A stretch of DNA of 28,527 nt, taken from positions 1 through 28,527 of the IMG/VR virus record IMGVR_UViG_3300032271_001254; one strand, written 5' to 3'. The notes below the pieces were generated by a model, which saw only the letters and a program-made list of their open reading frames with translations, ran no database searches and was not told the DNA's origin. Made by a program: the position numbers and the translations under genes. This DNA comes from a virus. Positions 3,499 to 24,575 of the stretch are shown in pieces (the first letter of the stretch is position 1; every line of letters begins with the position of its first letter).

Positions 3499-3513
3499 AT
3501 ATTGGATATTTAC

Positions 3514-3521
3514 CATAAATA
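3514..3521 (+). promoter_or_regulatory. Late-promoter-like motif of the baseplate wedge operon
   Basis: CATAAATA differs at one position from the T4 late promoter TATAAATA and lies 10 nt before the gp25 ATG. The reverse strand of the same short divergent region carries two GGTAAATA motifs pointing at the opposite gene, so the region looks like a compact bidirectional late promoter. Confidence 0.55.
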
Positions 3522-3531
3522 TTTACCTAAG

Positions 3532-4038
3532 ATGGCTACTATTTATATAGATAATTTAATAAAACCAAAAAGCCTATTTTCTCCAAATAATAAGCTTACC
3601 AATCCTACTAATCCTAATGATCCTGTTTATACTGATTTGCACTTAGATTTAGGATTTGTTAAAGGAATAGGAAATGGTTTAGATCCCCATCAATCAAATG
3701 ATGTAGTAGTTGATCATGATTCTAATGCTATTAAAAATTCTCTTTTTAATATATTCACAACAAGACCCGGAGAAAAAATACTTAATCCATCGTTTGGTGC
3801 AGCTTTAGATCAATTCTTATTTGAAAGTGTTTCTGATATTAAAGCTAGAATAATAGGTAATCAGATATTAAAAACCATAGCACAATTTGAACCAAGAATA
3901 GAAGTTCTTAATTTACAGATTGCACCTTTGCCTGATCAAAATATGTATTATGTTATGTTCCAGTATAAATTATTAAATGTAGGAATAACAGATACGTTCC
4001 AAATAAACTTTCAACAACATAATGTTAATATAGTATGA
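3532..4038 (+). CDS. 25: Baseplate wedge protein gp25-like
   Basis: A 168-aa member of the GPW/gp25 family. It is a wedge core protein that joins gp6 and gp53 around the tail tube end and helps start sheath assembly; it is lysozyme-like only in name. The family signature is clear: NSLFNIFTTRPGEKILNP (69-86), the FGAALDQFLFE segment (89-98) and the RIEVLNLQI strand (122-130) followed by a YYVMFQYKL strand. An open frame extends upstream to 3373 but runs through the oppositely oriented gene, so ATG 3532 is taken; the translated product then starts MATIYIDNL. The stop codon overlaps the gp6 start as ATGA (4035-4038), so translation is probably coupled. Confidence 0.9.
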   Translation: MATIYIDNLIKPKSLFSPNNKLTNPTNPNDPVYTDLHLDLGFVKGIGNGLDPHQSNDVVVDHDSNAIKNSLFNIFTTRPGEKILNPSFGAALDQFLFESVSDIKARIIGNQILKTIAQFEPRIEVLNLQIAPLPDQNMYYVMFQYKLLNVGITDTFQINFQQHNVNIV

Positions 4039-8800: not shown

Positions 8801-9275
8801 AAGAATAGTAGACTATGCAAGTGTTAATCAATCTAGATTACTTGGCGCAAGATCATTAGATCAAGTTGCATTTAAAACTCCTAATTCACAAGGAATATTA
8901 AACAGAAAATATAAACCTATAACTTCTCTTTGTTATGAAGTTAGTGCTGGACAAAATTTAGTATTAAAAGATAAAATACAAAATGTTTATACATTTGTTC
9001 CTACGGATAAGATATATAATATTATTATATATCCTTTGCAAGCTTTGGCAAATTATATTAATTTACCACAAGATTGGTATAATACATATGAATTTTATGA
9101 ATTTGTACCCGGTTATGATTATAGCGAAATATCGGGTATAATAGATTGGGAAAACCCCAATACAACTATTAATAGAAATTTATCTGGTGTTAATAATTGG
9201 TTTGGATCTGAAGGATTTTTAGATGCACAATTATCATATGCATTATATAAAGGATTAGGATATATAAACAACTAA
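5850..9275 (+). CDS. 7: Giant gp7-like baseplate wedge protein with Ig-like, PKD and beta-propeller segments
   Basis: A 1141-aa protein placed where T4 has gp7 (1032 aa), directly after gp6. Domains read in order: an Ig-like He_PIG segment with the IPEGMSLNNTTGAIYGTP hallmark (38-55); a PKD domain (about 92-165) with the classic YLWNFGDG-x-TS and HFYNLPGTYNVTF motifs (121-150); a long beta-rich region; an NHL-type beta-propeller (about 545-840) with repeated NNLWVTY / NNIWIAY / KGRVFVI blades; and a C-terminal block (about 895-1141) of mixed helices ending YALYKGLGYINN that I take to be the conserved wedge part. PKD and propellers are adhesion or sugar-binding modules in other proteins, so a role in surface contact is inferred. 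The gp7 name rests on gene order and C-terminal character. The gene ends 4 bp into the convergent tail operon (CTAA shared by both stops). Confidence 0.65.
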   Translation: MANIDQNQFFSLSAGNYYSIIPSFTAIGGITNVYAVNIPEGMSLNNTTGAIYGTPVNQGKSFIYYNVSDSINTASTILNFTIFFSNTAKTNIQVSPQNGYANITNFQFTSYVPASLSAYAYLWNFGDGNTSNVPNPTHFYNLPGTYNVTFDAYTPTGVKTLALSVKTDLKLNESLYFEYVPPPTFAGHYNRYPFRINFTSSVKGPHIIDLGAQYSKSYEAQIPSNKWSFLRPEWRFLDLNGNVVNNIYPTNEVEIYCDSQGNLNYTGNGYFVGVSGSYQFYFVDDLYNVDQAITSQPYTTIIATLRTSGIRAFSDSNNLDKNIPGFSNSLASAAIPYIFYWRSPDNLRISENGARDYVNPRWPQAVQNMVITANYKNPIPDPWPDGNGISLFNPDGAFARYIPTNNTDVLKLNVTTQGFSANILPQPITFQGVDNTGFKTAGYYKGKFTTNTVSALNATISASLTYHVPTLTAQFFNPILWISNPANTSMTIAQYFYNPALSAAINSPNLNVAHVYNFQVPFITNDLVALTGSQLIKSVAPLPAPSYHAWAVDSELNYIYRISSFGKILCALDLSNEIQKFNLVSEPITSFGILSGNDIRIDGNQNFYVSLNHSLSVLKFNNVGHMIGAFTPTKFLPQTNPPSQYYPENVAPYIDIDNQNNLWVTYNNSVTSAIVKYDQKGRKLFSTVPPLNPKNIIVDSNNNIWIAYLGSNSNYTLEKRDQYGNIIKSYYPIKNLKYINLDYKQNPWFTFSYSWVGTIDTSTGSVFLLNLSGTNQKFTNLGSWTDVNQNLNTTALGGIGGDQKGRVFVINSLEDNMYVIDSNSKNILNKFHLNSNSSAIADGDWTCLNWLNKFASKYTSYYIPNSSYVTLNGISKPLNFLQHQSYDIFKKNENFDIVTQMKSLAFVPSLRDSNVLFDEFFGSILGKYPFNHTDLGLESYEKIANFVSNHKDVDYCNIDQLYDLAASIGLSIEDFRLDYPEAIERIVDYASVNQSRLLGARSLDQVAFKTPNSQGILNRKYKPITSLCYEVSAGQNLVLKDKIQNVYTFVPTDKIYNIIIYPLQALANYINLPQDWYNTYEFYEFVPGYDYSEISGIIDWENPNTTINRNLSGVNNWFGSEGFLDAQLSYALYKGLGYINN

Positions 9276-9730
9276 TCTTTAACCAAAGATAAAAGATAAT
9301 TTGCACTATTAAATCTACTTAAGATATCTTCTATAGTATTGTGCATACCTGATTTAACTTGAGTTAAATAATTATTAAGTTCTATAGATGTTAATATTGA
9401 AGATATTTCTCTATAAACTTCGTAATAAGCATTTAAAATATTATTATTCTCATCAAAATATTGAGATGTATTATCTAATTTTATTATAGATGAATTAAAA
9501 CTTGGAAAAAGAACATCATTTTGTCTAGAAGTTCCTATGATTTCTTCTTGTAGTTTGTCGAAAAGTTCATCTAAATCTTCATAAAGTTTACCTAATATTT
9601 TATGTGTGTCATAATTTAAAACATACCAATGAACCATATGTATTATAGCTTCTGATTTTAAAAGAATTAAACCAAATTCTCTAGTAGGTTCGTTTGTTAT
9701 AGATGATATTGTTGTTATTTCTATTTCCAT
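9272..9730 (-). CDS. Dps/ferritin-like helical phage protein
   Basis: A 152-aa helical protein. The segment LLKSEAIIHMVHWYVLNYDTH followed by KLYEDLDELFDKLQEEIIG has the pattern of Dps/ferritin-like four-helix proteins (helix with spaced His/Trp, loop, acidic second helix). It closely recalls small T4-type phage proteins of that class (I think of DUF5856). Canonical ferroxidase residues are incomplete by eye, so metal binding is not claimed. It is the last gene of the long minus-strand tail operon; its ATG comes 1 nt after the stop of the previous gene. A TTG at 9754 would extend the frame, but that lies within the upstream gene. Its stop overlaps that of the gp7-like gene on the other strand. 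Function unknown. Confidence 0.65.
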   Translation of the reverse strand: MEIEITTISSITNEPTREFGLILLKSEAIIHMVHWYVLNYDTHKILGKLYEDLDELFDKLQEEIIGTSRQNDVLFPSFNSSIIKLDNTSQYFDENNNILNAYYEVYREISSILTSIELNNYLTQVKSGMHNTIEDILSRFNSANYLLSLVKD

Positions 9731-9731
9731 T

Positions 9732-10241
9732 TTATTTTTTTCTAAAAAATTCAATTTTTACCATATATTCCCCAAAAAAGTTTTGTTCGCTTGATAAGAA
9801 AATATATTCATTTGAATCATTTTTTTGTTTTGCTATATTTATAATTTGTTCTTCTGTATTGACAATTTGTTCTGGCATATTTGTATTTTTTTCTAATTCT
9901 TTTATTTCTATTTTAGAAGATACAAATCCTGTACTTTCTTTAGTTAATTCTTCTATTACATATCCTGCTTTTATTAGATCCTTTTTTAAAGATTCTATAG
10001 CTTCTTCTTCAGAATTAAAAAATAATTTCCATAAAGATATAGGAAATAATGTATTAAGAGCAGTTGCTCTTTGAGCACAAATGTTACATGGTCTTTTTTG
10101 TTTCGTTAATAAAAAAGTTAACCAACTCAAAGCTTTACTATGTAAAATACAAGATATTATATCACCAAGACCACGAGAATATCTTAATTTTAAGTATGGA
10201 TCTTTACCCAAAGATTTTTCTAAATGTTTGTTCTGATTCAT
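9732..10241 (-). CDS. Small conserved phage protein with CxxC motif
   Basis: A 169-aa protein. The N-terminal part holds RGLGDIISCIL (23-33) and a CNICAQRATALNTLFP block (52-67). The GLGD, CxxCxxR and LNxLFP pattern recurs in short proteins near tail-fibre genes of many phages; their role is not known to me. With only one CxxC pair visible, a metal site would have to be completed by other residues or by dimerisation. The C-terminal 85 residues are charged and contain a KDLIKAGYVIEEL helix. The gene begins 38 nt inside the preceding gene, a longer overlap than its neighbours show, and ends 1 nt before the ferritin-like gene. No Shine-Dalgarno sequence. Confidence 0.65.
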   Translation of the reverse strand: MNQNKHLEKSLGKDPYLKLRYSRGLGDIISCILHSKALSWLTFLLTKQKRPCNICAQRATALNTLFPISLWKLFFNSEEEAIESLKKDLIKAGYVIEELTKESTGFVSSKIEIKELEKNTNMPEQIVNTEEQIINIAKQKNDSNEYIFLSSEQNFFGEYMVKIEFFRKK

Positions 10242-10644
10242 TTTTTGATATTAAATTTAATTTATCTTTGTGATATTTAACTCTGTTTTCATATTTTTCA
10301 AATGCCGAAGTGATATAATCAGACATATCTGAATATTCTTCGTCCAATAATTCGTTATTATTTTCTAAAATTATGTTGATTTGTTTTATTAAATTATAAA
10401 TTTGTTTTTCTATTGGATAGTTTTTATTAATATATTCAAAAAGTTCTTTTTCTAAATTTAATTCTTCTATTGGGTATAAATTTTTAATCGGAACCATTTT
10501 TCCAGAATCATAATCCCCTTCCCATTTCCATTTACCTAAATCTGTTTTTTCCGGATCTATATCTTTTTTCAAAATTTTTGAATTTGGTGGTATGTTATCA
10601 CCATAACCTATAAATGTTTTTTCTTTGTTAAAAAGTGCAATCAT
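10204..10644 (-). CDS. Conserved tail-region protein of unknown function
   Basis: A 146-aa protein beginning MIALFNKEKTFIGYGDNIPP, with a WKWEGDYDSGKMVPI segment (about 38-53) and a helical C-terminal half of alternating charge (ELFEYINKNYPIEKQIYNLI and following). The N-terminal beta part plus the W-EGDYD-x-G-x-M motif resembles small proteins that accompany tail-fibre genes in large myoviruses and could be assembly factors, but that is inference. The start overlaps the stop of the preceding gene as ATGA (10644-10641), indicating coupled translation. Its 3' end overlaps the next gene by 38 nt. Soluble, no signal peptide. Confidence 0.65.
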   Translation of the reverse strand: MIALFNKEKTFIGYGDNIPPNSKILKKDIDPEKTDLGKWKWEGDYDSGKMVPIKNLYPIEELNLEKELFEYINKNYPIEKQIYNLIKQINIILENNNELLDEEYSDMSDYITSAFEKYENRVKYHKDKLNLISKNESEQTFRKIFG

Positions 10645-11339
10645 ATTATATTACCATATACTTTACCATTTCCATTATTTGTTAAATTTATTAAAAATTT
10701 GTTTCCATCTATTGCATTTCCTGCTTGTCCACCAAGTGGTGGAAGTTGTGTACCATTAGAATCCAAAGGTCCGGTGTCTTGTCCTTTTTGTCCTAAATTT
10801 CCCCCATTTCCTCCAATTATAGGTTTAAATGTTTGAGGTACAGGTACATTTAAAATATTTACAGTTGTTTGTGTTTGTCCATTATTTGGATTTTGTACAG
10901 GTATATTAACATTAAATGTTATATTTTTTGTTGGATTTGTTGGATGTTTTTTAGTTTTATTTTTATTAGCTGTATTTTTATTAGCTGTATTTTTAGTTTT
11001 ATTTTTATTATTGTTATTGTTACTTTTAATTTTTGTAGTAACTTTTTTTGTATTAGTGCTTTTAACTTTTTTTGTATTTGCTAAATTGGATTTTTTTTGT
11101 TGTGCTTTAGCATTTTGTTGTTTAGCAGCTTTGGCAGCAGCTTTTTGTTGATTAGCAACTTGTTTAGCAGCAGCTTTGGCAGCAGCTTTTTGTTGATTAG
11201 CAGCTTTAGTAGCAGCAGCTTTTTGTTGTTTAACAGTGTTAGCAGCAGCTTTGGCAGCAGCTTTTTGTTGTTTAGCAGCTTTTTGTTGTTTAGCAGCTTT
11301 AGTAGTAGCAGCTTTTTGTATTTGTTTTTTTACAGGCAT
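10641..11339 (-). CDS. Ala/Lys/Gln-repeat protein with glycine-rich fibre-tip-like C-terminus
   Basis: A 232-aa protein of three parts. Residues about 8-85 are low-complexity repeats of the type AAKQQKAAAKAA, which would form one long amphipathic helix or coiled coil. Residues about 86-135 are a Lys/Asn/Thr linker, including a tandem ANKNT duplication encoded by an exact 15-nt direct repeat. Residues about 136-232 are beta-rich and Gly/Asn-rich (IIGGNGGNLGQKGQ, then QAGNAIDGNKFLINL and GNGKVYGNII) and closely resemble the distal end of glycine-rich phage adhesins, where a GNAI-x-GN-x-x-I motif near the C-terminus is common. Probable role: detachable tip or accessory of the fibre encoded just upstream. 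A perfect TATAAATA late promoter lies 6 nt before the ATG. Alternative: a histone-like basic protein, which the C-terminus argues against. Confidence 0.7.
   Translation of the reverse strand: MPVKKQIQKAATTKAAKQQKAAKQQKAAAKAAANTVKQQKAAATKAANQQKAAAKAAAKQVANQQKAAAKAAKQQNAKAQQKKSNLANTKKVKSTNTKKVTTKIKSNNNNNKNKTKNTANKNTANKNKTKKHPTNPTKNITFNVNIPVQNPNNGQTQTTVNILNVPVPQTFKPIIGGNGGNLGQKGQDTGPLDSNGTQLPPLGGQAGNAIDGNKFLINLTNNGNGKVYGNII
10965..10994 (+). repeat. Exact tandem 15-nt repeat inside the repeat-protein gene
   Basis: Two perfect copies of ATTAGCTGTATTTTT (10965-10979 and 10980-10994) encode the doubled ANKNT unit of the overlying minus-strand gene. It looks like a recent slippage duplication. Confidence 0.85.
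11105..11320. repeat. Degenerate Ala/Lys/Gln-coding repeats
   Basis: Imperfect units built from GCAGC(A/T)GCTTT and TTTTTGTTG(T/A)TTAGCAGC recur about nine times with unequal spacing. They encode the helical repeat domain of the minus-strand gene. They stay in frame, so they are coding repeats and not a CRISPR array. Confidence 0.8.
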
Positions 11340-11354: not shown

Positions 11355-12755
11355 TTAATAATAAGTAGAATTTCCTCCAGATCCATTTGAATCGACTGAA
11401 CCTACATTACCATCATCACCTTGACTAAGTGTATCTAATCCATTAAAAGCAGAATTGGTACTAGTATTACTTACAATACCAATGCCACCAAGCCCTTCAT
11501 CTCCTCCTAAAAATCCAGCACCACCTCCTCCACCATTTCCTCCACCTAAGATAACATTAGTGGTGTAATTATCTGGAATTAATTCATTGATATCTACCGT
11601 TCCTTGGTGTGTAATAATACTAGTAACTGTATTAGCATCGGAGTATGTTGCAAGAGATCCAGCACCACCTCCTCCACCACCTCCTATTATTCCGTTGTTT
11701 ATTATCGTAGTTGGATATCTTAAAACAATAGCATCTCCTCCATCATTACCATTGGTATTATTGGTCAATGATGTTCCTAAGTTTTGACCATTTCCTCCAT
11801 TTCCTCCACATCCTAATATATATCCATCATTAATTATAGTAACAGTATCACCAGTTGAAAATCCAGAAACAATTAAAGCTGGTTCGGAAGTTTTTGTACT
11901 TCCTACTTTTGTATTATTATGTATATGCAATATTATATCACTTTGTCCTATACTATATAGACCTGTTCTGGTTATTCTATAAAACAAATCATAATTATAA
12001 TGATCTTCTTTTTGTAGTTCTACATCTATAGTAATTCTACCATTAGGGTTTGGTCTTATTTCTATTCTAGAATGGTCAAGTTCTGTTAAATCTGTATGTA
12101 TAGTTTTTTCAGTATTGCCTTCATTTGTTTCTAAATAAACCCAATCATTTATATTATTATAAAATGAAAGCATTTTTCCTTCTGATAAATGAATATCTTT
12201 TCTAGCAAAATAAGAATTTGTATTTCTTTTAACATATGTAAAATCAGGTAAATCAAAACTTGTTAACCTATCTAGATTTACTGGAACGTTTGTACTATAA
12301 AAAAAGAACATAACATTTACAATAGTTTGATTATTGAAAGCAGATGCAGGATAATTGTTTGTTAGGTATTTTTTACCAAGAGATTTTAATATAACATCAT
12401 TGTTTTCATCTTCTGTTAAACAATAAAATTTTTGATTATTTAAAGTTGATATGTTTAAGGGATAATGAACTGTAAATTGATTATCTTGCCAATAAGAACT
12501 TAATAATCGAACAGTTGTCGTTGCTCTACTAACTCTACTAATATCTGAAAAATTATTTTCTAAATCAATTAAAACAGCAGTATTTGCAGAAAATAAAGTA
12601 AAAATATTATAAAAACTATTAATATCATTAAAATACATTGAAGATAATTCACATAGTTGTGAATCTAAAGATATAAGATTATAATTATGTTTACCTACGG
12701 AATCTCCTACACAGTCTTCTGGAAATATTTTAAATGTTAGATTTCTATTATTCAT
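11355..12755 (-). CDS. Tail fibre protein with glycine-rich C-terminal adhesin region
   Basis: A 466-aa probable receptor-binding fibre. The N-terminal 95 residues (PEDCVGDSVGKHNYNLISLDSQ and on, to QFTVHYPLN) form a module shared with the next two genes of the operon and probably attach to the virion. The middle (about 100-290) is beta-rich. From about 305 the protein is dominated by glycine runs (CGGNGGNGQNLG, IIGGGGGGGAGS, LGGGNGGGGGAGFLGG), separated by short hydrophobic strands such as TVTIINDGYI and TTIINNGII. This is the pattern of polyglycine-sandwich adhesins such as T-even gp38 and related fibre tips, whose loops set host range. The start follows the upstream stop after 3 nt; the perfect late promoter behind it drives the following gene. 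Confidence 0.8.
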   Translation of the reverse strand: MNNRNLTFKIFPEDCVGDSVGKHNYNLISLDSQLCELSSMYFNDINSFYNIFTLFSANTAVLIDLENNFSDISRVSRATTTVRLLSSYWQDNQFTVHYPLNISTLNNQKFYCLTEDENNDVILKSLGKKYLTNNYPASAFNNQTIVNVMFFFYSTNVPVNLDRLTSFDLPDFTYVKRNTNSYFARKDIHLSEGKMLSFYNNINDWVYLETNEGNTEKTIHTDLTELDHSRIEIRPNPNGRITIDVELQKEDHYNYDLFYRITRTGLYSIGQSDIILHIHNNTKVGSTKTSEPALIVSGFSTGDTVTIINDGYILGCGGNGGNGQNLGTSLTNNTNGNDGGDAIVLRYPTTIINNGIIGGGGGGGAGSLATYSDANTVTSIITHQGTVDINELIPDNYTTNVILGGGNGGGGGAGFLGGDEGLGGIGIVSNTSTNSAFNGLDTLSQGDDGNVGSVDSNGSGGNSTYY

Positions 12756-12758
12756 ATA

Positions 12759-13655
12759 TTATGCTGTTATAAATTTATCAAATACCCAACAACAATTTTG
12801 AACTTTAAAAGCTATAGCTATTATATTTTGTCCTTCATATCTATCTTGGAATCCATATGTATTTCCAGATTTTGAATCTATTTGCATATCTATTGTTGTA
12901 GATATAGTTGAAGCTGCATTCTTTGAAGTAAAATTACCAAATGGTGTATTATTGTTTGTTAAATATGGTAATGTATATTTACAAGCTTGAGTTGCTGCTT
13001 TACTACACAAGGATTTTTGATTATTACACTTAAATCCATTTTTATATTGTTCACAATCATAAACAACTCCAGAATAAACAGTAGTACAACTAATGCCAGC
13101 ATTAATATCTGAAGTACCACAAACCAAATAATCACTAATTGTTTTTATAGAATTTATCTGTGAACCATAACACCATGTATGTGAATATACTATACATTGT
13201 TGTCCTTCTATAAAATTAGATTGTAAATCAGAAATTAGTGTATCTAGCGTTAAATTTCCGTTTGTATCTTCGATATAAACTTCAGGTACTACTGGAAAAA
13301 AATCTTGTATCCAAGAAGATAATGTTGTTTTTATAGAATCTATAGGGGTATTAGAAGGAAATAAAGAAGGATATACTATTGTTATAGGAGCTAACCAACC
13401 AGCAGAAAAATTTTCTACATATGTTGTTGTATTAAAAAAAACTGAGGAATTTTGTTTAGAAATTGTAATAACTTTATTAAAAGAATCTTGAAAAGCTAAA
13501 AAATAATTTAACATTGGTTGCCAAAAATTTTGAGAACTAGCAACTAAATTAAGAGTTGCTAGTTCTAAATTTAGATAGTTAGTATTAACATTAGATAAAG
13601 TATCTCCTATGCTATCATTTGACTGTAAACTATAAAAATTATAATCATTAATCAT
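12759..13655 (-). CDS. Cysteine-rich tail fibre-like paralogue
   Basis: A 298-aa virion-type protein with no catalytic motif. Its first ~100 residues share the module of its neighbours: NDSIGDTLSNVN, hydrophobic NFWQPMLNYFLAF, then SAGWLAPITIVYPSLF. The remainder has ten cysteines (for example GQQCIVYSHTWCYGS and YDCEQYKNGFKCNN, ending QNCCWVFDKF), far more than the surrounding genes, suggesting a disulfide- or metal-stabilised distal domain. The start is ATG 13655, whose ATGA overlaps the stop of the upstream gene; a TTG at 13667 would add four residues and is less likely. A fibre or spike role is inferred from operon position and from the shared module. Confidence 0.7.
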   Translation of the reverse strand: MINDYNFYSLQSNDSIGDTLSNVNTNYLNLELATLNLVASSQNFWQPMLNYFLAFQDSFNKVITISKQNSSVFFNTTTYVENFSAGWLAPITIVYPSLFPSNTPIDSIKTTLSSWIQDFFPVVPEVYIEDTNGNLTLDTLISDLQSNFIEGQQCIVYSHTWCYGSQINSIKTISDYLVCGTSDINAGISCTTVYSGVVYDCEQYKNGFKCNNQKSLCSKAATQACKYTLPYLTNNNTPFGNFTSKNAASTISTTIDMQIDSKSGNTYGFQDRYEGQNIIAIAFKVQNCCWVFDKFITA

Positions 13656-14455
13656 ATTGTTGTCCAAGTATAATTTATATTTTTGAATCTAAAATTAACA
13701 GTTCTCGCTGTATTAATATCAGTAGCACTTATTGAATAATTTAGAGTTAAAGTATTAGTATTTGTATTGTTTGAATATTTATAAAAATAGCCATTACAAT
13801 TTGTTTTTGCACTAATACCAGTTGTTGTTTTTTTACAATGGAAAAGAGCATTATCACACCAATGTTTACCATTACTGTCATGATTACAACCTACATTTTT
13901 TGGAGGTCTACAAACATCACAATTTAAATCAACAGCCGCAGATACAGAGTTTGGATTGCAATTTTCTGTATAAGTTTTATTATAATTAAAACTAAAAGGT
14001 ATAGTTTGATAGAGATATACAACTATATCTATTATTTGATTTGGGTTATATGTATTAGCATTAAAATTTATATCTAACCAGTTTTTTATAATTGATGTTT
14101 GAGAGCTACTATTCATAGCATACCAACTATTAATTTCCATCATTGTTGGATATATTAAAGTAAAATTTCCAATCCAAGTTGAACTTGTTGTATTTACTAC
14201 TGTAAATGCATCAATCCAATCAGAACTATAATTTAAAATATTATTTGTTGCTTTTAACCAATTTGCACTATGTGCAGTAAAAATAGTATATAAACCATAC
14301 CAAAAATTATGATTTTTTTCAAAATTAAAAATAGCAGAAGATAATGTTTGTACATTAAAATTAATCAAACCATAAGAATTGGACAAACAAAGAGAACTAT
14401 CTATAAGATAGATATTTGAACAAATTTGATTTGTATTGTCTAATGATACGCTCAT
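13652..14455 (-). CDS. Cysteine-rich tail fibre-like paralogue
   Basis: A 267-aa protein, the first of three consecutive relatives. N-terminal module: SSLCLSNSYGLINFNVQTLSSA, an aromatic HNFWYGLYTIFTAHSANW segment, and SSTWIGNFTLIYP near residue 105. The centre is cysteine-dense (NCDVCRPPKNVGCNHDSNG, HWCDNALFHCKK, TNCNGYFY), and spacing such as CDVC and WC..HC would suit zinc or disulfides. The C-terminal strands (about 235-267) resemble the same region of the neighbouring paralogue (VNFRFKNINYTWTTI compared with IAIAFKVQNCCWVFDKF). It starts 4 nt after the stop of the LamG/propeller gene, with no Shine-Dalgarno sequence. Tail fibre or spike is the best inference. Confidence 0.7.
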   Translation of the reverse strand: MSVSLDNTNQICSNIYLIDSSLCLSNSYGLINFNVQTLSSAIFNFEKNHNFWYGLYTIFTAHSANWLKATNNILNYSSDWIDAFTVVNTTSSTWIGNFTLIYPTMMEINSWYAMNSSSQTSIIKNWLDINFNANTYNPNQIIDIVVYLYQTIPFSFNYNKTYTENCNPNSVSAAVDLNCDVCRPPKNVGCNHDSNGKHWCDNALFHCKKTTTGISAKTNCNGYFYKYSNNTNTNTLTLNYSISATDINTARTVNFRFKNINYTWTTI

Positions 14456-14459
14456 ATTT

Positions 14460-17400
14460 TTATAACCAATTTACTTTATATAAAGAAGTATATGCAGGTG
14501 CTATTTTTTTTATATTAGTTTTTATAGCATCTTCGATTACTACTTTAACATTATCATTAATATTTAGATTGTGTATGTTAATATTAAAGTATTTGCTTTT
14601 ACTTCCGGGGAGTTGCATTTGATACCAATGTGATATTTCTTCTATAAAGCTTCTTCTTCCTACATTCATATTCCATGTAAGATCTTTTATTCCATCTGAA
14701 AAATTTGAAGAGAAATAAAGTTGTTCTATTTCGTTTTGTGTTAAGCTTTTTGCATACATTCTAAGTTCTGCAATTTTTCCTATAAATTTATAACTATCTT
14801 CAATACCTATGATATCATTAAGTGTAGTACTTCTAACAGAAGCAGCACCTAAAAATAATGATGATCTATAATCATAATAAATTTGATATTTTTGTGGAGT
14901 AAATGATACTTCATTTACTTTTATTGTATCTACATAATATCTAGCAACACCATTAAAACTATCAAAAGTTAACACAAAATGGTGCCATCCTTCTGGTAAT
15001 GAACTTACACTATATTGGAGTGAAAGTAATTGATAGTTTTTACCATTAGGTTCTGCTATCTTTAGTTTCCAAGAAAGGTTTTTATTAAGACTACCATATT
15101 TTCTTATATATTGATAACCTGTAAAATCACCTTTTGCATAAAAATCTAAGGGAATGGTAGGATCGGATCCTAAACCTCTTAAATCTAATTTGCTCAGTAA
15201 TGTACCATATGTGTTTAATATATAAATTTGATTTTCTCTATTATCAACTATAATAATTCTATCTTCATAATAAACATCTTCTTTACAAACTGTATTATTA
15301 TCTACTGGAACTTTAACAAAATTTATATATCTAAATACATCCTGAGTTGTACAAGGATTTGGAGGTAATGAACTGAATTCGCCTATTCTTAAAGAAAATT
15401 CAAATAAACCAGTTATAGTATTTAATTTAGAAACTCTATCTTGTTGGTGCAAAATCCAAATATTTCCTGTAGAATCACATGTTATTTGTTGTGTAAATCC
15501 TACATTTGCTACAACTGTTTTATTTAAATAAAGATTGCTACCAATAACTTCCCAAAGATTTCCACTATTATCTATTGTAGAAGATTTACCATGAGCAAGA
15601 ACTACATTACTATCTTGATCTAGCTCTATTCTATTAATACCTGCTGGTACAGTTGTTGTGCTAATATATTTTCCGTTTACATCAAAAATAGCATATCTTT
15701 TATTAGTATTATCATATATGTATATATTTTCATTTTGATCTATTTCTATTTGATCAAAAGAAGATATATAAGATGAAGCATTTAGATTACCTATTATACT
15801 ATTAATTTCACTATAAAGAATTCCTTTACGAGTATTAGAATCAAATATCCAAAAATTATAATTTGGAAGTCTTTGAATAAAGCTTATATTACCTCCAGAT
15901 ACATATGGGAAAGGAGTTTGTAATTCTGCAATTTTTTTCAATTTGTAGTTTACATTATAAATTAATCCAGAAGCACTATTAACTATTGTTAAAACAGGAG
16001 TTGTTAAAGACGACTCGTTTATCAAACCAAATCCACTTTTAAAGTAATTTCCGAATACTTGTTGTCCATATATATTAGACCAATCTTTTGTATTGATCCA
16101 CATAGAAACTGTTATTCTAGAATTTTGTAAAAGATCTTTTTTAGCAGGAAATACTACATGATTACTACCATCTAATATAAAATAATCATTTTTATAATTT
16201 TCTGGACTAGTAAAATAAGCCAAACCATTATTGTGATAATTAGAATCGTCTAAAATAGGAGAAGAAAGCCATCTAGTAATACTTAAAAGTTTACCACCAT
16301 TGCTTAAATTTGTTTCTTGATCCAAATATTGTAAGAAATTTTTACTGTTATTTTTACCTGTTCTATCATATTTATAAAGAACTCCGGGTTCTAAAATTAT
16401 TTTTGATGGTGTGTCAAATGTATAAGGTTTGGAAGGGTCTAATTTTTGATTATATACATAAGCAGTTGCAGTTAATGCTTGATCTATTGTATAATAAGCA
16501 GCATTATAGTATCTATCCATCCATACTTTTTTACCAAAATTAGTACCCGATAGCCAAGAACATAACCATGTTCTATCAAATTTAGTAATGCTTGCTGGTT
16601 GTGGACTTCCGGGTATAATTTCATTATAATTTTGTTTATATACAGAAATTCTATCGGAAGTATAAGGAAGTTCTCCAGCAATAGCACCATCTTCTATTAA
16701 TCCAGCGTTGTTTAATGGTGTTCTATTAGATAAAGCTGGATAGTAAAAATAATTTTCTTGATCTACTTTGAATGTAAATTGTTGAGTATCTGCTTGATAT
16801 CCTAAAAATATATTATTATATCCATTTGTTTGATTTGTTCCTGTATATAATTTTTCATAATTTCTTCTTATACAAGGAGAAGAAGAAATTAAAGGATTTG
16901 CTATTGAATATGTATATTCTGGTGTTTGGTGATTTTTTAAACTATGAATTTGTATATTGTAATTCGTATCCGTATCTGTTATATAAGGATATTCATATGG
17001 GAACATTGCCAAATAATTTTGTGCTAAAGAATTGCTTGAAATGAAATCTTCATCATAATTTAATTGATTTTTATTATTTGTGGGTGTTGTTTTATATTTT
17101 ACAAAAAAACTATTAGGTATATCTTTATCCGTATAAACAGTTTGATTATTTAAATATGAAGTGAATTTAAATATATATTGAGTTGGTATAGATTCACTAT
17201 TTGGAAGTATTAAAGTATCAACAAAAACTTGCGATCCTTGCGATATTACATTTGTAAAATTAGTATTAGAAACAAATAAAACTATATTGTCTTTACCTAA
17301 TATATAATCAAAAAGTTGTGAAGGATCTGGAGGATATATTCTAGGTAAAAATGATACAGTAACTCCATCAGAACCAACTGTCATTACATTACCATCTTGA

Positions 17401-17840
17401 TTTTCTACAACTACATAATTAGTTGGCACAAATTCAAATTTTAATGTATCTGCTTTTGTAAAAACAGTTTGTTGAGTATTAACTAAATATTTTACAGATA
17501 AGGTTGTTGTTAAATCTAATCCAGAAACTGAATAAACATAATTAGAAATAGGATCTATTATTGGAGATTCAATAATAGAAAGTTGTTCATTATCTTTTGG
17601 ATTAACATAATTTTTAATAAATTTAGAATTATATAAAGGTTTACTAAGAATTGTTCCTGTTCTTCTATTAAAAGAAAAATCCTGTGCGTCTTGTAAAAAG
17701 TCATGAATGTAAAAATTCATACTATTGCTGAACATACAAGGAGCTTTTTTTAATTCGTATTCCTCACCAACGATAGTAAAATCTACTGGATTCCAGTAGA
17801 TGGCAGACAATACTTTACAAAAATTAAAAGAAGTATCCAT
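14460..17840 (-). CDS. Large virion protein with LamG-like fold interrupted by a beta-propeller
   Basis: A 1126-aa probable baseplate or tail adhesin. The N-terminal ~430 residues are beta-rich and unassigned. A TWLCSWLSG ... VWMDRYYN block (about 420-445) and an ILEPGVLYKYDRTG block (about 480) follow. Then comes the first half of a laminin-G/concanavalin-like domain (about 550-600: YFILDGSNHVVFPA, RITVSMWINTKDWS). Residues about 610-870 have propeller blades with the signatures NENIYIYD, DSNVVLAHG, TGNIWILHQ and RIIIVDNRENQIYILN. The second LamG half follows (about 945-1042: PEGWHHFVLTFDS, ARYYVDTIKVNEV, YKFIGKIAELRMYAKSLT). The last 85 residues (HWYQMQLPGS to YTSLYKVNWL) may dock to the baseplate. 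LamG and propellers bind glycans or proteins in other systems. A TCTAAATA motif lies 6 nt before the ATG. Confidence 0.75.
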   Translation of the reverse strand: MDTSFNFCKVLSAIYWNPVDFTIVGEEYELKKAPCMFSNSMNFYIHDFLQDAQDFSFNRRTGTILSKPLYNSKFIKNYVNPKDNEQLSIIESPIIDPISNYVYSVSGLDLTTTLSVKYLVNTQQTVFTKADTLKFEFVPTNYVVVENQDGNVMTVGSDGVTVSFLPRIYPPDPSQLFDYILGKDNIVLFVSNTNFTNVISQGSQVFVDTLILPNSESIPTQYIFKFTSYLNNQTVYTDKDIPNSFFVKYKTTPTNNKNQLNYDEDFISSNSLAQNYLAMFPYEYPYITDTDTNYNIQIHSLKNHQTPEYTYSIANPLISSSPCIRRNYEKLYTGTNQTNGYNNIFLGYQADTQQFTFKVDQENYFYYPALSNRTPLNNAGLIEDGAIAGELPYTSDRISVYKQNYNEIIPGSPQPASITKFDRTWLCSWLSGTNFGKKVWMDRYYNAAYYTIDQALTATAYVYNQKLDPSKPYTFDTPSKIILEPGVLYKYDRTGKNNSKNFLQYLDQETNLSNGGKLLSITRWLSSPILDDSNYHNNGLAYFTSPENYKNDYFILDGSNHVVFPAKKDLLQNSRITVSMWINTKDWSNIYGQQVFGNYFKSGFGLINESSLTTPVLTIVNSASGLIYNVNYKLKKIAELQTPFPYVSGGNISFIQRLPNYNFWIFDSNTRKGILYSEINSIIGNLNASSYISSFDQIEIDQNENIYIYDNTNKRYAIFDVNGKYISTTTVPAGINRIELDQDSNVVLAHGKSSTIDNSGNLWEVIGSNLYLNKTVVANVGFTQQITCDSTGNIWILHQQDRVSKLNTITGLFEFSLRIGEFSSLPPNPCTTQDVFRYINFVKVPVDNNTVCKEDVYYEDRIIIVDNRENQIYILNTYGTLLSKLDLRGLGSDPTIPLDFYAKGDFTGYQYIRKYGSLNKNLSWKLKIAEPNGKNYQLLSLQYSVSSLPEGWHHFVLTFDSFNGVARYYVDTIKVNEVSFTPQKYQIYYDYRSSLFLGAASVRSTTLNDIIGIEDSYKFIGKIAELRMYAKSLTQNEIEQLYFSSNFSDGIKDLTWNMNVGRRSFIEEISHWYQMQLPGSKSKYFNINIHNLNINDNVKVVIEDAIKTNIKKIAPAYTSLYKVNWL

Positions 17841-17874: not shown

Positions 17875-20800
17875 TCATAGATATGTAACTGGAAATGTAT
17901 CGATTTGATACCAAAGAGTTAAATCTCCTCCTACATATGCTCTTACTGGGGGTGCTGCTGTTGAATAATTAGAAAGATTAGACATAGATACAGAAGTTAA
18001 TTGTGTATATGTACCTACATACCAATTAGTTCTGCAAGATCCACCAATATCAACATAGTATGTTTCATATGGATTGTTTATACCAGCACCAAAAGTATAA
18101 GAAGTAACTATAGGATATAAAGTAATGGCAGAATTGGGTATCTTATAAAGTCCATAATTATTTCCAAATATATCCATTTTCCATTGTGAAAGTGTTCCTT
18201 TGTTTATTAAAAGATTATTTTTTCTATTTTTATATGAAGATTCTAATAATTCTCCTCTGAAAGTTAATGGATATTTGTAAGCTTTATCCCATTTAGAAGG
18301 AAATGCTGGATTCCAAAATTGCAAATCATCATTTTGCATACACATGCCTACATCACTTCTTTTATCTATCTCGTATTTTGTTTGATATGGTGTGAACTTT
18401 TGGTTATTTAAAGTATCAGTAACCATACCTGCTGCATTTGCTGAAGCGAAAGATAACATCATCCATCTATTATCAATACTATCAATGACTACAGGGAAGT
18501 TTTGATCTTTTTTGGTTAATCCTCTATGTCTAGAACTATATTTTTCAGGATCTAAGAACATTCTTTCTGCACTTATACTGTCTATATAAGAGAGATTACT
18601 TCCATCGATTTTCATTTTATATCCTTTACCTCTATAAAATGATACACCTAAATTTTCAGGCAATAGATATTCACCTGTCTGTTTATCAGAAACTGCCAAA
18701 GAAGGAAAAGAAGCAGTTGCGATAGTAGGATAATGTACATTATCTAAATTTGCAAAAGGTTCCAAAGGTTCTATAGCAATTCCTGTATTAAAAACAAAAA
18801 AAGTATTTTTACATTTTTCACTATAAAAAAGATTTTCTGTATAATTTACACCAGTAATAGCATAATAGTTATATCTTGCTGGCAAGAATTCAGAATAACT
18901 TTCAAGTAGCATTTCACTAGGTTCATATGATCCATATTCGATCAAATCTTGTCCGTTTCCATTTCTGAGAACATTAGCAAAATTAGAAGAACCTTTTCCG
19001 AATACTAGTTTATTCCATCTATAATCAGATAATGTTACAGTAAAACTAAGTGGCTGATTCCACACTAAATTGGTATATGCTTTTCTTTCATATGTTAATA
19101 AACAACCATTGTTTAAAACCATATTAGATATATCAGGTTGATTTATAGGAACATAATCACCAAGAAACCTTACATGACCACCAAAAGTTTGTATATTTTT
19201 ATAAAATCTATTATTAGAATCTGGAATATTATACATTTTACCCCAAAATGGTTTTGCTCCAAATGCACTACCAACAGCTGTTAAAGAAAAACTATTTGTT
19301 ACATAATCCCATCCATTTAATTTATAATTTGCTGCAAAATTAATTGATGGCATTACAAAAGAAGTATTATTTGGTCCAGTATAATCTGCTCCTGCTTTGT
19401 GATTATAAACCAAATAATCACCCGGATTTAATACCATATCGGATATCTGTCTAGTAGAAATCCAATTTCCGTTTGGATCTTTTGTTGCTTTATACCATTG
19501 TGGAGTTACCGAAATAGAATTTGAATCAGTAAAGGTTGATACGATATATTGTATAAAACTATTATAGTCCCCATCACCAGAAGTTAAATAATCTTGAAGA
19601 TTAAAATAACCTAATGTGGATCCTATTTGTTGCATATTAGTATTAAAATATGAATTAGGACCAATATCTATAGAATATATTTCATAGCCATTATTTTTTA
19701 ATTGTGTTGCATATGGAATAGACTGACCAACATTTATATTTTCATAACCATCACTAAAAATCATTATTCTTTTTGTTGCACTTAATCTTGGAAAATTTGT
19801 ATTTTCTTTTATATTAGATATTCTAGATATGGTTGAATTTAAATTATTACATAAATCATATAGATTTACAGTTGTATCATCTGAAATTGTTGTTGTCAAT
19901 AAAGAGTTAGCAAGCTGTAAAGATTCATAAATATTAGTACTACAATCAGGATATGTATTTGTAATATTAATTTTACTTAAGTTATATTTTATAATATCAG
20001 ATGAATCGGTAAGATAGCTCAATTCATAAGCATGATTATTGAAGGATATTAAGGAAACTTTAATATCAAAATTTGATTTATTTAACAAATTATCAACTAT
20101 ATTTTTTACTAAATTTATTACAGTATCAATATTATCTTTTTGAGAATAACTATTGTCTATAATAATAGTCAAATCATATTGATTAGATATATTGCTATAT
20201 AATCCTCTTATGGTTTTATATGGATAATTTACAACTATATAAGGAGTAATTGGTTGATTAGTTAAAGTATTATTATTTGTTCTTAATGCTGTTCTATAAT
20301 AGGTATATCTTCTTCCTGTTTTAAGAATCATTGGTGCACCATTTCCTGTTTTCCAAAAACCAGATCCCCAACCTACATTGTTATCACCATTTAAACCATC
20401 TAAATAATAAAAAGAAAATTGAGGACTATTTAATGGTGTTAATCCACGAGTATCTATCCATGTATTAAATGCAAAACTAGAACCTAATCCTTGTGGATCA
20501 GCAAATAGAAAATCAGTCATTGCATTGTAATCTGTGGCTTTATTTCCTTGGTGACCTATTGGTGAATAAACTGTTGATTTACAAGTACACTTGTTCCAAT
20601 GTTGATTATTGTTTAATGGATTTGGATTTTGATAATCTTGTCTACTATAATAATCATAAGGACCATTTAAAATATAAGGACAATCTGGTTGGTGTTCTCT
20701 ATAGTAAAATACTTGATCTGCTGGAGTATCAATATCCATCCATACGAAAGATATTTTTTCTCCTCCATTTATTTTAGTCGATAATGCACCTTGTACAGGA

Positions 20801-22626
20801 CCATCCAAAAATGAAGAACAATATATTGCAGATACTCCATTATATATGTCTATAGAGTCATTTGTGGTATCCAATAATGTTATTGAACCCGAACCTAACC
20901 AAGCAGCTTCTACAGGTCCATCTGATTTTTGACCCATTTTATAGATTTTATCACTTGATCCAAAATCACTTCCAGCAATTGCACCAGCAATTGTTTGTGT
21001 TGGATTTGTATTACCAAGAACTATAGGTAAACATGTATCACTTAAAACAGTTATTGGCAAGTTAACGGTAACATCAAAACTTCCAATAGGCCAAACTATA
21101 TCAGAAGTTCCTATAGGAATAACAAAATCTGTATTTAAAAATTTATACAAATAAGCAGCTTCTGTATTACCTTTGTTAAAATCATTATAAACCAAATCTA
21201 TTACTTGATTTGATTGTCTTTTTACAACGGTGTCAGCAGCATCTGAAAATCTATCAGATAATGCACCATTATAAACTAGAGTAGTATCATTTATGTATAA
21301 TGAATTTGCGGATGAATTTGGTAAAGTTTTTGTGAAATAATCATAGAGAATAGTTTGTCTTTGCTCTGGTTGTAATTTTCCATATAATAAAAAGTTATTA
21401 TCATTCAGACTATGTCCTGCCCAATCGTTTCCTCTAGGTGTTAAATTAAATCCGGGAAAAGGAAAAATAAAATCTCTTTTTGTTCCTACAGGAATAGTCA
21501 TATTCATGTAATCAAAAGAACCTACAGTTCTTGGACCCATCAACCATGCTCCTTCTAAATAACCATTTTTATCAGAAAAAATTAAATCTGAATTGGTATA
21601 ATCACCAGTACCATATGCTCCAGATTTTACTAAATTTGAATCATTTATTTTTATTGGAGCATAAAGACTTACATATTTAGAATCGTCATAAATCTTATCA
21701 CCACTAGGCCAGAAAAACCAATTATTACCTTGTGAAAAGTTTAAATTTAAAATATAATCAGGAGTAGTAACTTCACTCTGACGTAAAGCTGTTAATGCAT
21801 ATACTCTTTCTCCAAGATATTTTTCTGAGGCTACTATCTGATTAAATACAGCAGGAACATAATTACTAGATAATGAAGCAGTCGATAGTGTAGGTAAATC
21901 GGTAAGATATTGTTTAAATATTTTTGATAAAGGAGTATCGCTTATTCTAGAAAGAAACCTACTTGATAATACACCAGCGATTTCATCCTCTGACATCATA
22001 TCAAATGGAATATCATTTTCTACATCTGTTAATGTTACATACGAAGAAATAGGAACAGAAGGATCAGAATCATGATATACATTAGGATCATGTAATTCTT
22101 CTACTTCTATATAAAAATTAGAATTTACAGATGAAAGTTGTGGGAAAAATTGTGATATATTTGAAATAGGAACTGTTGAAATATTATCACTCCCATGAGT
22201 AAATCCTTTTAAAATATATTCATAAAGAATACTTTCTAAGCCTTCATTAGAACCTATTAAATTGTATTTCAATTTTGTATTTTTAACTATTTCTCTCTTT
22301 TGAGCAATACTTTTACATATTTCTTTGAGTTTTTGTACAAAATATGGAATTGCTAATATAATATCTTCATCATTAGCAAAATCAATTTGACTTAAAAATA
22401 GATTAGAATCATTAGAATCTATTAAAAAACTCAATTCTTTTAATAAAGTAATATAATTCTGTTTAATTGTGGCTTCTGTAGTTACAGCTTTTGATTGGTA
22501 AACGTACCAAGAATGTAGATAGTCTGTGTACAATAACTGTTCAGTATCAGGTTTTATTCCTTCCTGATGCTTCATCCATTCCGAAAATGGTAATGGTGAT
22601 ATTGTATTTAAAGGTACTATTGTCAT
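17875..22626 (-). CDS. Giant virion protein with von Willebrand factor A domain
   Basis: At 1583 aa the largest gene here. The N-terminal ~220 residues are helical and begin IVPLNTISPLPFSEWMKHQEG, perhaps the attachment part. A long beta-rich region follows. Residues about 812-1030 form a VWA domain: strand YDLTIIIDNSYSQ with the MIDAS triad DxSxS (D824, S826, S828), the MIDAS Thr in STNIYES (T897), and strand KRIMIFSDGYEN with the third metal ligand D959. The C-terminal ~550 residues are again beta-rich with no motif I recognise. VWA domains bind ligands through a Mg2+ ion held at the MIDAS, so the intact triad suggests working metal-dependent adhesion. It sits second in the tail operon ahead of the LamG/propeller gene, so a host-contact baseplate or tail component is inferred. 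The start is 17 nt after the preceding stop. Confidence 0.75.
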   Translation of the reverse strand: MTIVPLNTISPLPFSEWMKHQEGIKPDTEQLLYTDYLHSWYVYQSKAVTTEATIKQNYITLLKELSFLIDSNDSNLFLSQIDFANDEDIILAIPYFVQKLKEICKSIAQKREIVKNTKLKYNLIGSNEGLESILYEYILKGFTHGSDNISTVPISNISQFFPQLSSVNSNFYIEVEELHDPNVYHDSDPSVPISSYVTLTDVENDIPFDMMSEDEIAGVLSSRFLSRISDTPLSKIFKQYLTDLPTLSTASLSSNYVPAVFNQIVASEKYLGERVYALTALRQSEVTTPDYILNLNFSQGNNWFFWPSGDKIYDDSKYVSLYAPIKINDSNLVKSGAYGTGDYTNSDLIFSDKNGYLEGAWLMGPRTVGSFDYMNMTIPVGTKRDFIFPFPGFNLTPRGNDWAGHSLNDNNFLLYGKLQPEQRQTILYDYFTKTLPNSSANSLYINDTTLVYNGALSDRFSDAADTVVKRQSNQVIDLVYNDFNKGNTEAAYLYKFLNTDFVIPIGTSDIVWPIGSFDVTVNLPITVLSDTCLPIVLGNTNPTQTIAGAIAGSDFGSSDKIYKMGQKSDGPVEAAWLGSGSITLLDTTNDSIDIYNGVSAIYCSSFLDGPVQGALSTKINGGEKISFVWMDIDTPADQVFYYREHQPDCPYILNGPYDYYSRQDYQNPNPLNNNQHWNKCTCKSTVYSPIGHQGNKATDYNAMTDFLFADPQGLGSSFAFNTWIDTRGLTPLNSPQFSFYYLDGLNGDNNVGWGSGFWKTGNGAPMILKTGRRYTYYRTALRTNNNTLTNQPITPYIVVNYPYKTIRGLYSNISNQYDLTIIIDNSYSQKDNIDTVINLVKNIVDNLLNKSNFDIKVSLISFNNHAYELSYLTDSSDIIKYNLSKINITNTYPDCSTNIYESLQLANSLLTTTISDDTTVNLYDLCNNLNSTISRISNIKENTNFPRLSATKRIMIFSDGYENINVGQSIPYATQLKNNGYEIYSIDIGPNSYFNTNMQQIGSTLGYFNLQDYLTSGDGDYNSFIQYIVSTFTDSNSISVTPQWYKATKDPNGNWISTRQISDMVLNPGDYLVYNHKAGADYTGPNNTSFVMPSINFAANYKLNGWDYVTNSFSLTAVGSAFGAKPFWGKMYNIPDSNNRFYKNIQTFGGHVRFLGDYVPINQPDISNMVLNNGCLLTYERKAYTNLVWNQPLSFTVTLSDYRWNKLVFGKGSSNFANVLRNGNGQDLIEYGSYEPSEMLLESYSEFLPARYNYYAITGVNYTENLFYSEKCKNTFFVFNTGIAIEPLEPFANLDNVHYPTIATASFPSLAVSDKQTGEYLLPENLGVSFYRGKGYKMKIDGSNLSYIDSISAERMFLDPEKYSSRHRGLTKKDQNFPVVIDSIDNRWMMLSFASANAAGMVTDTLNNQKFTPYQTKYEIDKRSDVGMCMQNDDLQFWNPAFPSKWDKAYKYPLTFRGELLESSYKNRKNNLLINKGTLSQWKMDIFGNNYGLYKIPNSAITLYPIVTSYTFGAGINNPYETYYVDIGGSCRTNWYVGTYTQLTSVSMSNLSNYSTAAPPVRAYVGGDLTLWYQIDTFPVTYL

Positions 22627-23091: not shown

Positions 23092-23829
23092 GTGAAAATA
23101 GAGTTCATAGCTGATACAAAAGAAATGCTGGGTATTTTAGAAAAACCGTATCCAGCATCTAAAAAATCTCCGTTTTGGTTAAAGCGTATGCCTACTTATA
23201 TTGGTAGAAAAAAGGCAATCAATGATAATGGTGTACCAAATTATACGATTAAAAACAATTATAACATAACAGATGCTTTAAATATTGGATATTATATTCC
23301 TTTACACTCTGATGTATCATTTAAGACTGAAAAAAATTATGGTATAAATGTAAAATGGGCATGGAACAGCTTAAAAGTCGTACATATGTACGAAGAAGAA
23401 GAAACTGAAGGATATCCTTTACCAGATTCGTTTGAACAGGTAATATTTAAATGGGGATGTCCTTGGATTATTAAAACTCCACCGGGATGGTCTTGCTTAT
23501 TTACGCATCCTATGCATCAGGATAATCTTCCTTTCAAATCGATTCCTATTGTAGTAGATACCGACAAATATCCAAAATCTATAGAATTTCCTTTCCTTTT
23601 AGAGAAAGATTTTTCTGGTTTAATAGAAAAAGGTACTCCTATTATTCAAGTTATTCCATTTAAAAGAGAAAAGGTTATATCAGAATTCTCTTATGATTTT
23701 GGTTTTTTTAAAAACCAATGGAAAAAAGCTTCTTCTATTATTTTTGATAGATATAAAAAGCTATTTAGATCAGAAAAAACTTATGAACAAGGTTCGGTAA
23801 AAAATCAAATTAATTATATTTTTAAATAA
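23092..23829 (+). CDS. Conserved phage protein, tandem paralogue A (DUF6065-like)
   Basis: A 245-aa soluble protein, closely related along its full length to the next gene. Shared landmarks: IEFIADTKEML near the start, KPYPA (18-22), GYYIPLHSDV (66-75), the strongly conserved TPPGWSCLFTHPMHQ (129-143), VDTDKYP (155-161), SGLIEKGTPIIQVIPFKR (175-192) and a final FDRYKKLF helix. It resembles a family common in T4-type and cyanobacterial phages that I associate with DUF6065; the function is unknown to me. The order P-x-G..., VDTDxY, ..IxKGTPIIQ.IP parallels motifs 2, 3 and 4 of dUTPases, so a beta-clip fold is inferred. The start codon is GTG, 7 nt after a good promoter and with no Shine-Dalgarno sequence. 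The paralogue follows after 2 nt. Confidence 0.75.
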   Translation: MKIEFIADTKEMLGILEKPYPASKKSPFWLKRMPTYIGRKKAINDNGVPNYTIKNNYNITDALNIGYYIPLHSDVSFKTEKNYGINVKWAWNSLKVVHMYEEEETEGYPLPDSFEQVIFKWGCPWIIKTPPGWSCLFTHPMHQDNLPFKSIPIVVDTDKYPKSIEFPFLLEKDFSGLIEKGTPIIQVIPFKREKVISEFSYDFGFFKNQWKKASSIIFDRYKKLFRSEKTYEQGSVKNQINYIFK

Positions 23830-23831
23830 AA

Positions 23832-24575
23832 ATGAATACTAAAATAAAATTCATAGCAGAAAATGAAGAAACTTTAGAAATTTTACCTAAACCATATCCA
23901 GCTTTAAATAAATTACCTAATTGGATTCATGAAATGGATTCTTATGTTAATGGTGAAAAGGATATAAATGATGAAGGAGATCCCACTTCGACTATAAAAA
24001 AGTGTGTACCTGTTTTAGATTCTATTACCGCTGGTTATCATATTCCTTTACATAGTGATGTTTGGGTAGAAAATGATGGGGAAGATATTAATATAAAATG
24101 GTCATTGGACGATATAAAGGTTGTTAGTGTTCATGATCAAGTTCAATATCATTCATACCCCGTTCCGGAAGGGTATGAAGCTGTGGGATTTAAATGGATT
24201 AACCCTTGGATTGTTAAAACACCACCGGGATGGTCTTGTATGTTTACACATCCTATTCATCAAGAAGATCTTCCTTTTAAATGCTTAACAGCAATAGTTG
24301 ATACTGATAGATATCCAAGTTGTGTTAATTTTATATTCTTTATTAAGAAAGGATTTTCTGGATTAATTCCTAAAGAAACTCCAATAATTCAAATTATACC
24401 AATTAAAAGATCTACATTTAAATCAGAATATTCACATGATTCTGGTTTTTTAAAACAACAATGGGAAAAAGCTCATTGTGTATTTTTTGATCGTTATAAG
24501 AAATTTTTTCATGTTCCTAAAATATATAAAAAAGGTGATATTAGAAAATGTCCATTTGCATTTTTACACAAATAA
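23832..24575 (+). CDS. Conserved phage protein, tandem paralogue B (DUF6065-like)
   Basis: A 247-aa paralogue of the preceding gene, with the same landmarks in the same order: IKFIAENEETL, KPYPA (20-24), GYHIPLHSDV (68-77), KTPPGWSCMFTHPIHQ (129-144), IVDTDRYPSCVNF (155-167), SGLIPKETPIIQIIPIKR (176-193) and DRYKKFF (220-226). The most divergent parts are 40-60 and 80-115. The arrangement, 2 nt apart on the same strand, indicates duplication in situ followed by considerable divergence. Function unknown; no catalytic residue set is obvious beyond the conserved Asp pair in VDTD and two His in FTHP..HQ. A late-type motif follows before the next gene. Confidence 0.75.
   Translation: MNTKIKFIAENEETLEILPKPYPALNKLPNWIHEMDSYVNGEKDINDEGDPTSTIKKCVPVLDSITAGYHIPLHSDVWVENDGEDINIKWSLDDIKVVSVHDQVQYHSYPVPEGYEAVGFKWINPWIVKTPPGWSCMFTHPIHQEDLPFKCLTAIVDTDRYPSCVNFIFFIKKGFSGLIPKETPIIQIIPIKRSTFKSEYSHDSGFLKQQWEKAHCVFFDRYKKFFHVPKIYKKGDIRKCPFAFLHK

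Follow-up and report, generated by a model that had tools for sequence, protein, structure and literature searches.

The von Willebrand A (VWA) domain has been met before in the virion-protein gene region of a phage. Gp164 of Bacillus phage 0305phi8-36, described in 2007, is encoded in such a region of a large myophage and possesses a central VWA domain, which is missing from its relatives (PMC2147016). VWA domains have also been reported in eBAP4, a tail-fibre group of extracellular contractile injection systems (PMC12923769), and the other phage VWA proteins met in the papers searched are stand-alone proteins or AAA+ partners (PMC7911831 and PMC8651126 for the AAA+ pairs and cobST). In bacteria, Streptococcus sanguinis PilB and pneumococcal RrgA carry a VWA domain with a MIDAS grafted on a filament protein, with arms flanking the MIDAS (PMC8179133). 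Mfa5 of Porphyromonas gingivalis (6to1, 6tnj) is a pilus-tip protein.

The window analysed here is the whole stretch of 28,527 bases of a single IMG/VR virus record. Its ORF list includes a frame at 17875-22626 on the minus strand, which encodes a protein of 1583 aa, designated P0001. Like gp164, P0001 is encoded in a virion-protein region and has a central VWA domain missing from a portion of its relatives, but the two belong to different phage lineages and were compared by published description, not by sequence or MIDAS state. P0001 is not the first VWA protein of a phage virion-protein region, gp164 being earlier; what is new is a graft that keeps its MIDAS intact and is spread across a lineage, in a protein encoded near T4-like baseplate genes. 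PilB and RrgA share with P0001 the MIDAS-bearing VWA grafted on a structural protein, but they are bacterial pilus proteins with an unrelated scaffold, and their function has been tested. Mfa5 matches the VWA of P0001 by both sequence profile and fold but is a bacterial fimbrial protein, and eBAP4 belongs to different particles and is likened to P0001 by description, not by sequence. The parts of P0001 are as follows.

17875-22626, minus strand: P0001, VWA-bearing baseplate-neighbourhood protein, 1583 aa (ORF; IMG/VR homologues)
21757-22626, minus strand: N-terminal domain, residues 1-290 (helical in the model)
20203-21756, minus strand: beta-rich scaffold before the VWA, residues 291-808 (high-confidence model in homologue L084)
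20209-20244, minus strand: first arm of the predicted carrier beta-hairpin, residues 795-806, PYIVVNYPYKTI (homology to L084 model strand 465-470)
19522-20178, minus strand: VWA domain, residues about 817-1035 (PF00092 and fold match)
20143-20157, minus strand: MIDAS motif DNSYS with D824, S826 and S828 (sequence position; conservation)
19936-19938, minus strand: MIDAS threonine T897 (sequence position; invariant in 32/32)
19750-19752, minus strand: MIDAS aspartate D959 of the SDG motif (D in 30/32, N in 2)
19477-19500, minus strand: second arm of the predicted carrier hairpin, residues 1043-1050, QWYKATKD (homology to L084 model strand 478-484)
18109-19521, minus strand: scaffold after the VWA, residues 1036-1506 (common to VWA-less homologues)

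The first-pass annotation, made from the letters alone, had proposed a VWA fold in this protein, and both of the computations it had suggested, a search against VWA families and a structure prediction with a fold search, bear the proposal out. Pfam family PF00092 matches residues 818-1013 (E 5e-10; 40.3 bits, the cut-off being 23.8); PF13519 (VWA_2) is also above its own cut-off. In an AlphaFold2 model of residues 1-1140, built from 14 sequences, strands and helices of the domain alternate, as they do in the VWA fold; the pLDDT of the domain is mostly 63-89 per 10-residue block, being weaker at about 915-942, and the scaffold is poor in this model (mean pLDDT 46.5). As found by Foldseek, the VWA model resembles ANTXR2, integrin I domains, Plasmodium TRAP and the LapA VWA (probability 1.00, best E 8.5e-8). 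VIA-align superimposed it on the VWA of ANTXR2 with Z 21.9 and an rmsd of 2.1 Å over 173 aligned residues, and on Mfa5 with Z 21.3. A single-sequence phmmer search of the PDB with the VWA returned nothing; a profile was needed, and with it collagen VI, PTMP1, Mfa5, ANTXR2 and integrin alpha-2 were matched. Integrin I domains and ANTXR2 have the same fold, recognisable by sequence profile, but are eukaryotic receptors with 14-20% identity. As judged from the model and the profiles, residues about 817-1035 of P0001 are a genuine VWA domain with a Rossmann-like alpha/beta fold. The interval given for it previously, 19545-20190, covers the domain (about residues 813-1027), although the strand needs correction to minus.

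The five proposed metal ligands, D824, S826, S828, T897 and D959, are located exactly where they had been placed, and in the profile alignment with Mfa5 the DxSxS motif, the threonine and the aspartate of SDG coincide with their Mfa5 counterparts; the fold match implies that the five lie near one another in space. Their conservation was assessed in 32 distinct VWA-bearing proteins from IMG/VR. D824, S826 and T897 are identical in 32/32; position 828 is occupied by serine in 26 proteins and by threonine in six, and position 959 by aspartate in 30 and by asparagine in two (L012 and L068). Among the 224 columns of the VWA, the five MIDAS columns rank 2, 3, 5, 13 and 21 by conservation. As a whole, the domain is less conserved than any other part of the protein except the C-terminal tail: the mean pairwise identity is 33.6% for the VWA, compared to 44.9% for residues 1-290, 46.7% for residues 291-800 and 46.2% for residues 1036-1500, and the VWA is less identical than residues 291-800 in all pairs (435/435). 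That the MIDAS is retained in a domain otherwise diverging faster than the remainder of the conserved protein argues against a relic, in line with the earlier view of the domain. A fixed metal site in a faster-drifting domain fits the pattern of an exposed binding module.

Several members of the family have insertions, 10 to about 250 aa long, just behind the third MIDAS loop, following residues 964-969. In L006, L055 and L056, insertions after residues 964 and 969 (P0001 numbering) total about 280-320 aa beside the MIDAS loop; they are rich in Glu, Lys, Leu and Asn and look coiled-coil-like by eye. By description, these insertions are reminiscent of the arms on either side of the MIDAS in PilB and RrgA (PMC8179133). 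Near its end the VWA also has an unusually conserved motif, YFNLQ.YL..GDGD (residues 1007-1020, 19567-19608), whose D1018 and D1020 might bind a second ion.

Homologues of P0001 in IMG/VR show about 38-56% identity in their best tblastn segment. The scaffold also occurs in 21 other distinct homologues, mostly at 26-34% identity by tblastn, and the VWA profile matched none of these 21. All 20 that cover the region skip profile positions of about 802-1035; most have almost nothing between the two matched blocks, and L085 has about 100 residues there. In the scaffold tree the 32 VWA-bearing proteins form one clade with a support of 98, the root being uncertain. A single gain of the VWA would be enough to explain this clade, as would its loss among the VWA-less proteins; gain, not loss, is the direction we infer.

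The site of the graft was located in a model of the VWA-less homologue L084 (61 rows, mean pLDDT 78.8), which is confident over most of the first 840 residues. The graft point is a turn between strands 465-470 and 478-484. By homology with this model, the VWA of P0001 appears to replace a hairpin turn, anchored by residues 795-806 on one side and 1043-1050 on the other. The scaffold model had no match at E below 1e-3 in the PDB and BFVD, which is not proof of a new fold. The VWA-less proteins have an insert of their own, of about 100-170 residues, starting about 45-60 residues downstream of the graft point. The insert of L084 was modelled as a PKD/Ig-like domain with Z 6-7 (e.g., 6.7 to the ColG PKD); this name is tentative because such Z values are middling. 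A global alignment paired this insert with the VWA as its counterpart, a pairing overruled by the profile coordinates. In L071, the homologue lies in two overlapping frames (6221-11099) with a break near profile position 540. Since gp6 of this record is split too, sequencing frameshifts may be present in the contig.

The N-terminal domain of the P0001 type was found in the VWA-bearing members and in L069 and L070. Residues 1 to about 180 are also common to a separate protein family of 850-970 aa (L017-L031), the members of which match P0001 only over the N-terminal 140-300 residues or so. Judging by this shared sequence, the domain may be a common virion anchor of P0001 and the L017-L031 family. 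A search ahead of the shorter VWA-less homologues found no gene encoding the N-terminal part on its own. Protein searches of an annotated phage collection with P0001 (by tblastn), two VWA-less homologues, L021 and the window proteins at 5850-9275 and 14460-17840 gave no match; no PHROGs family was found for P0001, and no relatives of P0001 were found in a scan of bacterial and archaeal genomes. The term giant phage, applied to the protein earlier, rests on relatives located on contigs of 170-236 kb; the record of P0001 itself comprises only 28.5 kb.

The assignment of the gene to a tail or baseplate region, made in the first-pass annotation, is upheld by synteny with gp25 and gp6. The neighbouring genes are listed below.

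3373-4038, plus strand: gp25-like baseplate wedge protein (PF04965 E 6e-12; phrog_261)
4035-5846, plus strand: gp6-like baseplate wedge protein (phrog_219 E 2.5e-36; hhalign to T4 gp6 98%)
5850-9275, plus strand: 1141-aa PKD/Ig-bearing protein (in related loci, its homologues separate gp6 from the P0001 homologue)
11355-12755, minus strand: tail-fibre adhesin, gp38-like, glycine-rich (PF05268 E 1e-7; phrog_11439 E 3e-18)
14460-17840, minus strand: 1126-aa LamG-domain protein, after P0001 on the same strand (PF13385 E 6e-10)

Homologues of gp25 and gp6 of the T4 baseplate wedge adjoin the P0001 family. In L010 and several VWA-less loci the gene order is gp25, gp6, the homologue of the 5850-9275 protein and the homologue of P0001, with one gene more in L010; in L001 the next gene encodes a T4-type portal. 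The scaffold is not detectably T4 gp7, gp8, gp9 or gp10, which were tried as candidates and show no relation to P0001 by hhalign (probability of 0.1% against the gp7 family alignment, with 98% for gp6 as a positive control). C-terminal extensions in some relatives of P0001 match the profiles of legume lectin (E 8e-22), LamG (E 1e-20), Gly_rich_2 (E 2e-14) and also Ig. In L065 such an extension opens, from 10890, with a long Thr-Pro-Thr-Ser repeat.

The VWA fold, the MIDAS residues with their retention, the clean presence or absence of the domain at one site and the baseplate synteny are computed results. The reading that we prefer, with a confidence barely above even, is that the VWA of P0001 is a host-surface adhesion module of the baseplate and tail-fibre region of a T4-like phage, binding through its MIDAS in a metal-dependent manner. 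P0001 would be a virion component encoded in the baseplate and tail-fibre gene region, and a MIDAS-type VWA would have been inserted once into a beta-hairpin turn of a pre-existing scaffold, from which it would project on two short linkers. The MIDAS would coordinate a divalent ion, Mg2+ or Mn2+, and an acidic group of the ligand would complete the coordination, as in integrin I domains. The ligand, the step most dependent on inference, would most likely be on the host surface, making the VWA an adhesion module of the baseplate periphery. Binding of a host receptor by the MIDAS, as suggested earlier, is plausible; the VWA fold, the near-invariant MIDAS, the faster drift of the VWA, the insertions beside the MIDAS loop, the clean absence of the domain from 20/20 VWA-less homologues, the gp25-gp6 neighbourhood and the lectin-like C-termini of some relatives support adhesion. 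Against it stand the asparagine in place of D959 in L012 and L068 and the VWA-less relatives, which manage without the domain; the receptor could in truth be bound by the gp38-like adhesin (11355-12755) and the LamG protein instead.

Docking inside the virion would suit the MIDAS just as well: its partner would then be a tail or fibre protein close by, bound through an acidic side chain, and the contact would serve assembly or a conformational trigger rather than host recognition. The strict retention of the MIDAS across a diverse clade, the hosts and receptors of which probably differ, speaks for such docking. So does the distribution of two small fibre-cluster proteins (13652-14455 and 12759-13667), which track the VWA as a partner would: homologues were found in 6/6 VWA-bearing records tested and in 0/5 VWA-less ones, bar two short weak matches in one, while gp6, as a control, was present in 11/11 of the same records. 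However, the VWA-bearing proteins are one clade, and descent only would explain this tracking equally well; besides, drift faster than that of the scaffold is less expected of an internal interface. On balance, docking inside the virion seems unlikely, though it keeps appreciable weight. That the ion is purely structural and stiffens a spacer or decoration having no specific ligand is improbable. The PKD/Ig-like domain of the VWA-less sisters, about 60 residues downstream, suggests that accessory bulk may suffice, but PilB deprived of its MIDAS metal kept its structure and had its adhesion cut 33-fold, so the MIDAS there is kept for binding, not for stability (PMC8179133).

Haloarchaeal tailed viruses have pairs of VWA and AAA+ proteins, and cyanophages have cobST (PMC7911831, PMC8651126), which raises the question of whether P0001 is not a virion protein at all and its VWA acts inside the cell with an AAA+ ATPase of the CobT/MoxR-partner type. 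The location of the gene among gp25, gp6 and fibre genes and the lectin-like C-termini make this very improbable. In five large VWA-bearing records no AAA_3 was found over the cut-off, with one weak match at E 6.8e-4 (the search covered AAA_3, not CobS-type families, and the records may be incomplete), and the VWA is therefore probably not of the AAA+-partner kind. The VWA matches in the large VWA-bearing records fall in the P0001 homologue, bar one weak match elsewhere in one record.

If the MIDAS binds a host ligand, as in the adhesion reading, these phages attach as integrins and pilus tips do, by an ion-dependent grip; the papers searched contained no phage example of it that had been tested by experiment. 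Tentatively, and with less confidence than adhesion as such, a clade of T4-like giant phages may be pictured as gripping their hosts by an integrin-type metal-dependent site of the baseplate that arose by a single hairpin graft, the sister phages having a PKD/Ig-like domain on the same scaffold. The clean graft and the natural VWA-less homologues, which may serve as controls, open the question to simple mutation and cation testing.

Two further features of the window are noteworthy. Three adjoining proteins of 466, 302 and 267 aa, encoded at 11355-14455 on the minus strand, apparently have a common N-terminal module, by eye, and the first of them has the gp38-like adhesin end. At 23092-24575 on the plus strand, two tandem paralogous-looking genes encode proteins of about 245 aa each with no function assigned, and homologues of the second are located near the VWA gene in several relatives.
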